DNA of 64,000 nt, from NCBI RefSeq assembly GCF_009650215.1, contig NZ_CP045851.1, positions 2,135,001 to 2,199,000 of the forward strand, in the 5' to 3' direction. The stretch's first letter is position 1. Every line of letters starts with the position of its first letter. The position numbers and the translations under genes are program-made. The DNA is from Actinomarinicola tropica. GTDB lineage: Bacteria; Actinomycetota; Acidimicrobiia; Acidimicrobiales; SKKL01. The notes under the pieces are model-generated. The model did no database searches and had not been told where the DNA came from. It was given only the letters and a program-made list of their open reading frames with translations. This document shows positions 23,954 through 58,869 of the stretch, piece by piece.

Positions 23954-24487
23954 TCAGAGCCGATCGTGACGTCGGGTCTCGAGGACGACGGCCAACGGGG
24001 CGAGGGCGAACAGGACCACCCCGAGCACGACGGCCGACACGCCGAGCGCCACCACCGGGCCGAGCCGCACGATCGACCCGACGACCAGGGCGCCGATGCC
24101 GAGCACGACGCAGGCGACGGGGACGATCGCCAGGGCCCGACCGCCCCGGGGCCGACGGGCGTGCGCCTCCCCGTACAGATCGTCGAGGTCGAGCTCCTCC
24201 TCGTCCGTGTCGTAGGGCGTCCAGGTCCACGGGTCGTCCTCGGCGGCGTCGACGTCGAACGAGGGCCCGGCGAGGCTCAGGTCGTACCGGTCGCGGCGCG
24301 CCGGGTCCCGCAGCTCGCGCCAGGCCTCGTTGATCTGGCGCATGCGGCGCTCGGCCTCCGCCCGGGCCGCAGGCGGGGAGTCGGCGTGGCGGTCCGGGTG
24401 GTGGTCCCGGGCCAGGCGCACGTAGGCCCGGCGGATCTCGTCGGTGGAGGCCGTCGGGTCGACGCCGAGCACCTCGTAGTGGGTCAC
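23954..24487 (-). CDS. J-domain membrane protein
   Basis: 177 residues. The N-terminal J domain (1-72) has the essential HPD within ARDHHPDRHAD (about 29-32). An acidic linker with the segment DTDEEELDLDDLYGE follows, then two membrane segments (about 115-137 and 143-165). J domains stimulate DnaK ATPase; this one would tether DnaK at the membrane. It lacks the Gly/Phe and zinc domains of true DnaJ. A TAGCCT hexamer six bases upstream of the GTG suggests its own promoter inside the end of the GT87 gene. Confidence 0.88.
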   Translation of the reverse strand: MTHYEVLGVDPTASTDEIRRAYVRLARDHHPDRHADSPPAARAEAERRMRQINEAWRELRDPARRDRYDLSLAGPSFDVDAAEDDPWTWTPYDTDEEELDLDDLYGEAHARRPRGGRALAIVPVACVVLGIGALVVGSIVRLGPVVALGVSAVVLGVVLFALAPLAVVLETRRHDRL

Positions 24488-26565: not shown

Positions 26566-28091
26566 GCGCCGCGCTCCTCGCGGTCCTTGCGGCGCAACGC
26601 CGTGAGCCGACGGGCGGGTGGGATGGCCACGAGGAGGGCTCGGGCCTTGTTGCGGCACTCCAGGTCCTCGTGCTCGGGCACGCTGTCGGCCACCACCCCG
26701 GCGCCGGACTGGACCGACGCGATGCCGTCGTCGCCGATGATCATCGTCCGGATGGCGATCGCCGTGTCGATGTTCCCGGAGAAGTCGATGTAGCCGGCGA
26801 CCCCGGCGTAGGGACCCCTCTTGACGGGCTCGAGCTCGTCGATGATCTCCATCGCCCGGACCTTCGGGGCGCCGGAGACCGTGCCGGCCGGCAACGTGGC
26901 CCGCAGCACGTCGATCGGCGTCCTCCCGGGGGCCAGCTCGCCCGACACCTGCGAGGTGAGGTGCATGACGTGGCTGTAGCGCTCGAGGACCATCATCTCG
27001 TCCACCTGCTCGGTGCCGAAGCGCACCACCCGACCGACGTCGTTGCGGGCGAGGTCGACGAGCATCACGTGCTCGGCGATCTCCTTGGGGTGCTCGCGCA
27101 GCTCGGCACCGAGGCGGCGGTCGTCCTCCTCGGTGGTGCCGCGCCGGCGCGTCCCGGCGATCGGGCGCGAGATCACCCGGCCGTCGAGCAGCTGCACCAT
27201 CGGCTCCGGTGAGCAGCCGACCAGGCTGAGGCCCGGCTGGCGGATGAAGAACATGTAGGGGCTCGGGTTCACCTGCCGGAGCACGCGGTAGACGTCGAAC
27301 GGGTCGGCGTCGAGCTCGACGTCGAACCGCTGCGACAGCACCACCTGGAAGATGTCGCCGGCGAGGATGTGCTCGCGGGCGACCTCGACGGCCCGGTGGT
27401 ACGGCTCGCCCCCCATCGTGGAGGTGAACTCGGGGAGCTCGTCCGACGCCGGGAGCTCGACGAGCGGCTCGGCGAGGGGCTTGGCGCCGTCGCGGGCGAG
27501 CTGGTCGAGGCGGGCGACGGCGTCGTCGTAGAGCGCGTCGAGCTGGTCGTCGTCGGCCCCGGCCGGCACGATGACGTTCTCGATGAGGGTGACCCGCTGG
27601 CGCCAGTGGTCGAACGCCGCCAGCTCGCCGATGACCGAGAGCACGGCGTCGGGGTGGCCCCGGTCGTCGTGCGGGACGTCGGGCAGGCGCTCGACCTCGC
27701 GCACGACGTCGTAGCCGAGGTGGCCGACGACGCCGCCGTGGAGCGGCGGCAGGTCGGGCAGCTGCGGGGAGCGGTACCGCTCGAGCAGCGCCTCCAGCGT
27801 CGCGAGCACCCCCTCGTCCACCGGCAGGTCATCGGGCAGGTCGCCCTCGACGGTGACCGTGCCGCCCCGCGACGTGATCGTGCCGATCGGGTTGCGGCCG
27901 ACGAAGGACCAGCGGCTCCAGCGCTCGCCGTGCTCGACCGACTCGAGCAGGAACCCGGGCTGGTCGTCGCCGCAGAGGCGGGCGTAGGCGGCCACGGGCG
28001 TGATGAGGTCGGCGAGCAGCTCCCGCCACACGGGGACGACGGTGTGGTCCCGGGCCAGCGCCCGGAACTCCTCCCTACTCGGTCGCAGCAC
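26562..28091 (-). CDS. trpE: Anthranilate synthase component I
   Basis: 509 residues. The N-terminal Trp-feedback region includes [16 protein letters not shown]. The C-terminal chorismate-binding domain has SPEPMVQL, the [10 protein letters not shown] loop, [21 protein letters not shown] and a final [11 protein letters not shown]. It makes anthranilate from chorismate with ammonia from TrpG, which is not in this window. The start overlaps the end of hisI by 17 bases. No leader peptide or attenuator precedes it. Confidence 0.96.
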
Positions 28092-28440
28092 CGAACCCCC
28101 TGAAGAAGCAGCTGCGGTGGCCGGTGTGGCAGGCGCCGCGGCCCTCCTGCTCGACGCGGAAGAGCACGACGTCGCCGTCGCAGTCGTAGGCGCCGGAGCG
28201 CACGAACTGACGGTCGCCGGATGTCTCGCCCTTGCACCACAGCTCGGCGCGTGACCGGCTCCAGAACCAGGTGCGGCCGGTCTCGAGGGTGCGCCGGAGC
28301 GACTCCTCGTTCATCCAGGCGACCATCAGGACCTCACCGGAGGCGTCGTCCTGGATGATCGCGGGGACCAGGCCTCGCTCGTCGAAGCGGATCTCGGCGA
28401 GATCGGCCTCGTCGATCGGGAGGGGTGTGGCGACGGGCAT
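28075..28440 (-). CDS. hisI: Phosphoribosyl-AMP cyclohydrolase
   Basis: 121 residues. [28 protein letters not shown] and YDCDGD, plus the Cys-containing [10 protein letters not shown], are the HisI metal-site motifs. It opens the adenine ring in step 3 of histidine synthesis. I choose the ATG at 28440 because a TACGAT hexamer lies seven bases upstream; the ATG at 28449 falls inside that hexamer. The HisE partner domain is absent, so hisE must be elsewhere. Confidence 0.94.
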
Positions 28441-28447
28441 GGCGCCC

Positions 28448-28453
28448 ATCGTA
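28448..28453 (-). promoter_or_regulatory. Leaderless -10 box (TACGAT) of hisI-trpE
   Basis: TACGAT on the minus strand, seven bases before the hisI ATG at 28440. It places trpE and ygfZ downstream of a his-gene promoter. Confidence 0.55.
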
Positions 28454-28458
28454 GGGAC

Positions 28459-28809
28459 TCAGAGGTAGAGGCCCGTGCTGCCTTCCGCGAGGCGAGAGGC
28501 GGCCACGGCGTGGATGTCGCGCTCGCGCAGGATGATGTAGTCGTCGCCCCGCACCTCGACCTCGTAGCGGTCCTCGGGGTTGAAGAGCACCTGGTCGCCG
28601 GGCTCCATGGCGCGGACGTTGGGGCCGACGGCCACGACCTCGGCCCACGTGAGGCGCTTCGACATCTGCGCCGTGGCGGGGATGAGGATGCCTCCCGACG
28701 AGCGCCGCTCGCCCTCGGCCGACTCCATCCTCACCAGGATGCGGTCGTTGAGCATCTTGATCGGGAGCTTGTCGTCGCCGGTGAGGCCGGCGCCCTCGGG
28801 GGTGGTCAT
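28459..28809 (-). CDS. Stand-alone GroES-like protein with C-terminal GLYL tail
   Basis: 116 residues. Residues about 16-100 match the Cpn10/GroES barrel: LNDRILVRM, a mobile-loop region [25 protein letters not shown] and YIILRERDI. There is no groEL gene nearby. The mobile-loop IVL-type triplet is ILI, so GroEL binding is possible. The C-terminus extends past the barrel to AEGSTGLYL. From memory, related actinobacterial paralogs also end STGLYL. The tail resembles the GQYL/GTYL tails by which proteasome activators dock to the 20S core. A TACCGT hexamer lies eight bases upstream. Confidence 0.85.
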
Positions 28810-28828: not shown

Positions 28829-29617
28829 TCACGCCGGCCGCACCGTCACCCCACGGTCGGCCATCAGCGCCTTGGCCTCGGCCACCGAGTGCTCCCCGAA
28901 GTGGAAGATCGACGCCGCGAGCACGGCGTCGGCCCCGCCCTCGGTGACCCCCTCGACGAGGTGGTCGAGGGTGCCCACGCCACCGGACGCGATGATCGGC
29001 ACGTTGGTCGCCTCGGCGACGGCCCGGGTCATCTCGAGGTCGAAGCCCTCCCGCGTGCCGTCGCGGTCCATCGAGGTGAGGAGGATCTCCCCCGCCCCCA
29101 GCGACTCGGCTCGCTGCGCCCACTCGACGACGTCGATCCCGGTCGGCGTGCGACCGCCGTGGGTGAAGACCTCGAAGCCCGTCGGCACGTCGCCCAGGCC
29201 CGTGGCGTCGGCCCCCGTGCGGCGCCCGTCGATGGCGACGACGACGCACTGGGCCCCGAACTCCTCGGCCAGCTCGGCGACGAGCTCGGGTCGCTCGACC
29301 GCCGCGGTGTTGACCGACACCTTGTCGGCGCCGGCACGCAAGAGGCGGCGGGCGTCGTCGACCGACCGGATGCCGCCCCCGATGGTGAACGGGATGAAGA
29401 CCTGCTCGGCGACGTGGCGGGCGATGTCGACGATCGTGTCCCGCGCGTCGGACGAGGCGGTGATGTCGAGGAACACCACCTCGTCGGCACCCTCGGCGTC
29501 GTAGCGGGCCGCCAGCTCGACGGGGTCGCCGGCGTCGCGCAGGTCGACGAAGTTGGTGCCCTTGACGACGCGCCCGGCGTCGACGTCGAGGCACGGGATC
29601 ACACGGGCGGCGCGCAT
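28829..29617 (-). CDS. hisF: Imidazole glycerol phosphate synthase cyclase subunit
   Basis: 262 residues, TIM barrel. Catalytic Asp residues are in IPCLDVDAG (about 11) and VVAIDGRR (about 132). Phosphate loops are IGGGIRS and IASGGVG. It uses ammonia from HisH to form IGP and AICAR. The start overlaps the hisA end by 19 bases. Confidence 0.97.
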
Positions 29618-58346: not shown

Positions 58347-58856
58347 CTAGAGGTAGGTCCCCGGACGATCGGTGTGCCCGGCCTCGGCAGCGGGGCCACC
58401 CTGCGGCGGCATGAGCTGGCTCTGGCGCATCTGCTCGATCTGCTGGCGCGCCGCCATCTGCTGGGCGAAGAGCGTGGCCTGGATGCCGTGGAACAGACCC
58501 TCGAGCCAGCCGACGAGCTGGGCCTTCGCGATCCGCAGCTCGGCCCCGGACGGGACGTCCTCGTCGCCGAACGGCATGGCCAGCCGGTCGAGCTCCTCCT
58601 GGAGGTCGGGCGAGAGCGCGGAGCCGAGCTCGTTGACCGACAGGTCGTAGATGTCCCGGAGGCGATCCCGGCTGGCCTCGTCGAGGTCGGTGCTGCGGAC
58701 CTCGTCGAGCAGCTGCTTCATCATCGAGCCGATCCGCATCACCTTCGCCGGCTCGTCGACCGCCTCGCGGTGCTCCTCCGGCTCGGCCTCGACGGGCTGG
58801 ACCAGCTCGCCGCGCTCGACCGTGGACTCGTCGGGGGTGGGGTTCGCGTCGGACAC
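58347..58856 (-). CDS. bpa: Bacterial proteasome activator (Bpa/PafE, DUF2587)
   Basis: 169 residues. EPAKVMRIGSMMKQLLDEVR, DEASRDRLRDIYDLSVNEL, ELRIAKAQLVGWLEGLFHGIQ and FAQQMAARQQIEQMRQ match mycobacterial Bpa closely (from memory). It forms a helical ring that docks on the 20S proteasome without ATP. It ends RPGTYL, in place of the mycobacterial GQYL docking tail. I use the GTG at 58856, seven bases after TAGGGT. Implies that the organism has a 20S proteasome, not seen in this window. Confidence 0.93.
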   Translation of the reverse strand: MSDANPTPDESTVERGELVQPVEAEPEEHREAVDEPAKVMRIGSMMKQLLDEVRSTDLDEASRDRLRDIYDLSVNELGSALSPDLQEELDRLAMPFGDEDVPSGAELRIAKAQLVGWLEGLFHGIQATLFAQQMAARQQIEQMRQSQLMPPQGGPAAEAGHTDRPGTYL

Positions 58857-58863
58857 GAGCGCC

Positions 58864-58869
58864 ACCCTA
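58864..58869 (-). promoter_or_regulatory. Leaderless -10 box (TAGGGT) of bpa
   Basis: TAGGGT on the minus strand, seven bases before the GTG at 58856; the GTG at 58865 lies inside it and cannot be used on this transcript. Confidence 0.55.

Follow-up and report, generated by a model that had tools for sequence, protein, structure and literature searches.

A roofless GroES relative with an activator-type C-terminus: a probable seven-tailed partner, so far undescribed, of the bacterial 20S proteasome

Why should a protein of the GroES fold, encoded apart from groEL, end in the same way as the activators of the bacterial proteasome? The question is raised by a gene of Actinomarinicola tropica, in a stretch of 64,000 nucleotides of contig NZ_CP045851.1 (positions 2,135,001 to 2,199,000, referred to as the window). 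A first-pass annotation, made from the sequence alone, had described a Cpn10-fold protein without adjoining groEL and with an STGLYL end, and a Bpa in the same window ending in GTYL. Both descriptions were confirmed: the open reading frame, its coordinates, strand, C-terminus (EGSTGLYL before the stop codon) and Pfam assignment all agree, and Bpa is recognized by its own family model. The features of the window referred to below are as follows.

28459–28809, minus strand: Cpn10-fold paralog (cpn10-like), 116 amino acids, STGLYL end, assigned by Pfam and by fold
28462–28473, minus strand: codons of the GLYL tail (residues 113–116), the proposed 20S docking motif, from ortholog conservation and a genome motif scan
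28474–28500, minus strand: variable linker from barrel to tail (residues 104–112), from positional entropy
28594–28626, minus strand: site of the deleted roof hairpin (residues 62–72), a loop of 8 residues versus 16–18 in canonical GroES
28669–28695, minus strand: mobile-loop motif GGILIPATA (residues 39–47), equivalent to the GroEL-binding loop in GroES, from alignment
28829–29617, minus strand: hisF, upstream neighbour
28075–28449, minus strand: hisI, downstream neighbour
58347–58865, minus strand: Bpa (bacterial proteasome activator), GTYL end, PF10759 with E = 2.3e-63

The Pfam model Cpn10 (PF00166) matched residues 17–102 with an E-value of 6e-20 and 71.4 bits, against a gathering cut-off of 21.1; the Pfam search returned Cpn10 matches only and showed no homology to Bpa (PF10759). 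With the NCBIfam GroES models the protein remained below all cut-offs, the best score being 51.1 bits versus 96. The monomer was predicted as a Cpn10 barrel in which a loop and the tail are disordered (pLDDT under 50 for the tail). Its closest structures are Cpn10 proteins (Z 10.5), and the best sequence match in the PDB is Cpn20 of a chloroplast complex (7ekq). In the source genome (G000; 3.7 Mb, one contig) the gene is flanked by hisF and hisI/trpE, with groEL not adjacent. The canonical groES-groEL pair is located separately, at C1:306 kb, and its GroES ends in NARDVLAIRK, without a tail. The proteasome set is present with prcA, prcB, pup, dop, pafA and an ARC ending in ATGQYL. A J-domain (DnaJ-like) protein with apparent C-terminal membrane segments is encoded a few kb from the paralog (window 23954–24487, minus strand).

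A whole-genome scan for GxY[L/F] followed by a stop codon, on both strands and in any frame, gave six pattern matches. Only three true GxYL-stop sites were found in the 3.7-Mb genome, namely those of ARC, Bpa and the Cpn10-like gene, and this is the strongest single-genome argument against a tail arisen by chance.

The statement in the first-pass annotation that paralogs of other actinobacteria end alike proved correct. All 239 complete ortholog sequences keep the tail in the form G-[L/Q]-Y-[L/I], in which neither G nor Y ever varies. They consist of the even phylum sample (98/98), Acidimicrobiia (79/79), family f48 (12/12), a class sample (48/48), Nonomuraea gerenzanensis and a phage-labelled contig, some genomes having been read twice. 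Among the 98 orthologs of the phylum sample the tail is GLYL in 86, GQYL in 11 and GLYI in one; the GQYL form, which is exactly the tail of Mpa and Bpa, occurs in two separate lineages, family f25 and genus g21 of family f5. In these orthologs, positions −2 and −4 have an entropy of 0 bits, position −1 of 0.08 and position −3 of 0.51; it rises to 2.2–3.2 bits at positions −6 to −14, where the residues of the linker are nearly random. Linker and tail together extend 13–18 residues past the last barrel strand. The tail is encoded by 43 different 12-base sequences in the 98 orthologs, which points to selection at the protein level, and it was found in none of 21 canonical GroES proteins.

Two trivial causes of this conservation were considered and rejected. 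An overlapping gene does not account for it, with the stop codon 9 bases short of hisI, neighbours that vary by lineage and the 43 codings. Neither does a bias of the search towards tailed homologs, given the clean gap in score between paralogs (at least 127 bits) and canonical GroES (at most 53 bits); some orthologs were aligned over the barrel only (residues 17–105) and end in GQYL nonetheless. Niveispirillum and rhizobial plasmid matches were set aside as apparently ordinary GroES, the one that was read ending in MGVLNA.

The distribution of the paralog was compared with that of the 20S core, prcB being scored as present when TIGR03690 exceeded its cut-off; all genomes belong to the Actinomycetota. 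In the union of 487 genomes, 194 have both genes, two the paralog only, 74 prcB only and 217 neither. The first-pass annotation had proposed comparing the paralog's occurrence in genomes with and without the proteasome, and a near-complete restriction to the former was found: prcB is present in 194/196 genomes with the paralog, and the paralog is absent from 217 of the 219 genomes lacking prcB. Rather than being equally frequent in both groups, it occurs in 194/268 genomes with prcB versus 2/219 without. The individual samples follow the same pattern, with 97 genomes having both, one the paralog only, 52 prcB only and 196 neither in the phylum sample (paralog in 98 of 346), 76, 1, 21 and 20 in the class sample and 38, 0, 12 and 10 in family f48. 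Fisher p values are tiny but blind to shared ancestry, and the useful contrasts are those within groups. Genus g227 of family f48 contains one genome with both genes and one with neither, and families f27 and f42 likewise include genomes of both kinds.

The two exceptions without detectable prcBA are both fragmented metagenome-assembled genomes. One (G006, 250 contigs) has an ARC that still ends in GQYL, beside a contig end; the other (G406, 230 contigs) has the paralog and no ARC or proteasome matches, which makes it either a true exception or an assembly from which the entire locus has dropped out. Nine genomes have kept ARC and lost the 20S core (G133, G260, G024, G375, G385, G387, G395, G383 and G398), and the paralog is absent from all of them. 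It therefore tracks the core and not Pup/ARC, and the latter association was discarded. In seven (G260, G133, G375, G385, G395, G383 and G398), which serve as a positive control, ARC has no GQYL where the 20S is gone; the paralog is wholly absent from these, not kept in a tailless form. Conversely, the 74 prcB genomes without the paralog indicate that the proteasome does not require it. One genome of genus g227 (G357; L264, L253) carries prcB and a paralog ending in GLYL, yet its ARC has lost GQYL and ends in GDVL; the Cpn10-like protein may work with the 20S there where ARC no longer docks.

Beyond the points raised by the first-pass annotation, alignment showed that the barrel has lost its roof hairpin and retained the GroEL-binding loop motif. 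The roof segment has 8 residues in the paralogs measured versus 16–18 in canonical GroES of the same phylum, and the gap is identical in all twelve aligned paralogs. Orthologs with as little as about 41% identity still carry the mobile-loop motif, G-[I/L]-[L/V/I]-I-P-A-T-A, in almost unchanged form, and the hydrophobic tripeptide of the mobile loop is present within GGILIPATA. A roof loop is also missing from gp31 of bacteriophage T4, which shares the Cpn10 fold (1g31, Z 8.6) but is a viral replacement of GroES in a host without proteasome. In GroES, the hole left between the seven roof hairpins measures about 5 angstroms (PMC5653362); where these hairpins are lacking, the ring should therefore be open.

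In Mycobacterium tuberculosis, seven Bpa protomers occupy the seven pockets of the alpha ring, with Tyr and Leu of the tail contacting R26 and K52 of PrcA (PMC11953334). The PrcA of the source genome aligns at both tail-holding sites, with the arginine in GIAR and the lysine in RKISE. Both were placed by the residue numbering of M. tuberculosis PrcA. GLYL is a hydrophobic-Tyr-x motif. Since the middle residue of GQYL, the glutamine, is dispensable in M. tuberculosis (PMC12288473), GLYL should work as well. With the pocket residues kept, the glutamine unneeded and a Cpn10 heptamer that would pair with the alpha ring subunit for subunit, tail-dependent docking on the 20S appears very likely. The second residue of the motif also varies in known activators, GTYL instead of GQYL being found at the end of the window Bpa and of the ARC of another genome (G393, L261).

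These results support the earlier interpretation of a 20S-linked ring or adaptor derived from Cpn10, through the conservation of the tail and the co-occurrence with the core, and they make the gene a strong candidate for a 20S partner not yet described. A specialised GroES paralog that forms a roofless Cpn10 ring, docks on the bacterial 20S and serves as its partner is the favoured reading, and a fairly probable one. The subunits would assemble into a ring, probably seven-membered in view of the Cpn10 fold, and the flexible linkers would let the G-[L/Q]-Y-L tails enter the seven pockets between PrcA subunits as does the GQYL of Mpa/ARC and Bpa. With no roof hairpin to close the dome, an open central hole would sit above the 20S gate. 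Its likeliest role would be that of a cap, independent of ATP, which docks, probably opens the gate and presents or filters unfolded clients, possibly passed on from GroEL via the retained mobile loop. That the protein is a ring-shaped cap seems reasonably likely, slightly less so than the reading as a whole. That docking results in activation and not in another consequence is more doubtful, and a cap need not activate, as the co-chaperonin complex Cpn11/20/23 of the Chlamydomonas chloroplast caps ClpP and reportedly represses it (PMC8889267, PMC12282863). On the sequence evidence the protein may be ring, adaptor, activator or client handler, the forms named by the first-pass annotation, and once docked it may activate, cap, aid assembly or bridge to GroEL.

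Among the alternatives, a bridge between chaperonin and proteasome survives best, although it is rather unlikely. Mobile loops on one face would bind GroEL and the tails the 20S, so that proteins left unfolded by GroEL are handed over. The near-invariance of the loop motif favours such a bridge, as does the ordinary groES kept besides; the loop may nevertheless have been kept for clients or for the stability of the ring, and groEL does not adjoin the paralog in any of the neighbourhoods examined (his/trp, Bcp-DUF3618 and hspR-clpB). A more specific form, with a seven-fold Cpn10 ring linking GroEL and 20S by GxYL tails in all seven pockets and mobile loops that receive GroEL clients, is a little less likely again. 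If true, it would provide a direct fold-or-degrade handover in bacteria.

Two further explanations are improbable to the same degree. The tail could belong to a chaperone of proteasome assembly or maturation, binding alpha rings or half-proteasomes like the HbYX-tailed assembly factors of eukaryotes and archaea; factors of this kind are known (Kusmierczyk 2011, as cited in PMC4254994), and the class of motif and the dependence on 20S presence would be the same, but 74 of the 268 prcB genomes have the core without the paralog. An inhibitory cap or competitor would instead fill the alpha pockets with the gate unopened and limit the access of ARC and Bpa under stress. A GxYL tail would compete directly with theirs, and the reportedly repressive chloroplast Cpn20 (PMC12282863) offers a parallel; against this, gate opening by Mpa and Bpa needs GQYL (PMC12288473), and it is the ring-closing roof that has been deleted. 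An ordinary second GroES with a tail unrelated to the proteasome, in keeping with the Cpn10 fold and the GroEL-type mobile loop, is very improbable, as it leaves unexplained why GxYL is invariant behind a random linker, why GQYL variants occur, why canonical GroES is tailless and why the gene is nearly absent from 219 proteasome-free genomes.

Compared with known systems, the favoured roofless 20S partner resembles Bpa/PafE, the dodecameric ATP-independent activator (PF10759), in its C-terminal GxYL after a variable linker, its occurrence only together with prcBA and the distance of its gene from the pup locus. Bpa is a four-helix bundle forming a 12-mer, whereas the Cpn10-like protein is a beta-barrel with an expected 7-mer. 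With Mpa/ARC it shares the C-terminal GQYL and, if it assembles as expected, the ring, and loss of the ARC tail likewise goes with loss of the 20S; Mpa/ARC, however, is an AAA+ ATPase recognising Pup, and ARC persists without the 20S while the paralog does not. From GroES (PF00166), with which it has the fold and the mobile-loop motif in common, it differs by the missing roof hairpin, the linker with GxYL tail and a gene not adjacent to groEL. The chloroplast complex (7EKQ) similarly places a co-chaperonin axially on a ring-shaped protease, but it is a plastid hetero-oligomer of one- and two-domain subunits acting on ClpP and not on the 20S, and it is reportedly repressive.

Reviews of 2025 and 2026 name Mpa/ARC and Bpa/PafE as the bacterial proteasome activators and Cpa as a third associated factor (PMC12288473, PMC13091356). 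Among openly licensed published papers, these reviews included, no description of a Cpn10-like 20S partner was found. All sampled genomes of family f41 have the 20S and none has the paralog; f41 is probably the family of M. tuberculosis, in which Bpa does occur. A partner missing from that species would have been overlooked because work on the system is largely mycobacterial and Bpa itself came from a search of the M. tuberculosis genome. Bpa was discovered by the logic of HbYX tail and co-occurrence (PMC4254994), and the Cpn10-like gene, which shows the same two properties, occurs in about three quarters of the sampled proteasome genomes (194/268). This roofless GroES relative with its activator-type tag is thus probably a bacterial 20S partner with seven tails that has gone undescribed. 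If so, the GxYL-tailed partners would gain a third fold, one with an expected symmetry that matches the alpha ring, and parts of the chaperonin would be joined to the proteasome, much as a co-chaperonin caps ClpP in the chloroplast.

The genomic surroundings of the paralog differ between lineages. In Acidimicrobiia it lies in the his/trp operon. In families f51 and f54 (L060, L062 and L065) it is located directly downstream of clpB on the same strand, the two frames touching in L060, and hspR precedes clpB in two of these three loci, forming a heat-shock operon. HspR is a substrate of Bpa-20S (PMC11953334, PMC13091356), and as Bpa-20S degrades it, this neighbourhood fits a role in proteostasis. 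In families f36, f45, f48, f65 and f72 the neighbours are mostly a Bcp peroxiredoxin and a DUF3618 protein; the arrangement of Bcp, DUF3618 and Cpn10-like gene is conserved in L026, L049, L208 and most loci of f36 and f48, and DUF3618, of unknown function, may be functionally associated with the Cpn10-like gene. One of these loci (L208) lies on MT835744.1, an unverified contig labelled Bacteriophage sp., and was not accepted as a phage gene; with the three genes in the order found in actinobacterial chromosomes, the contig is probably misfiled bacterial DNA.
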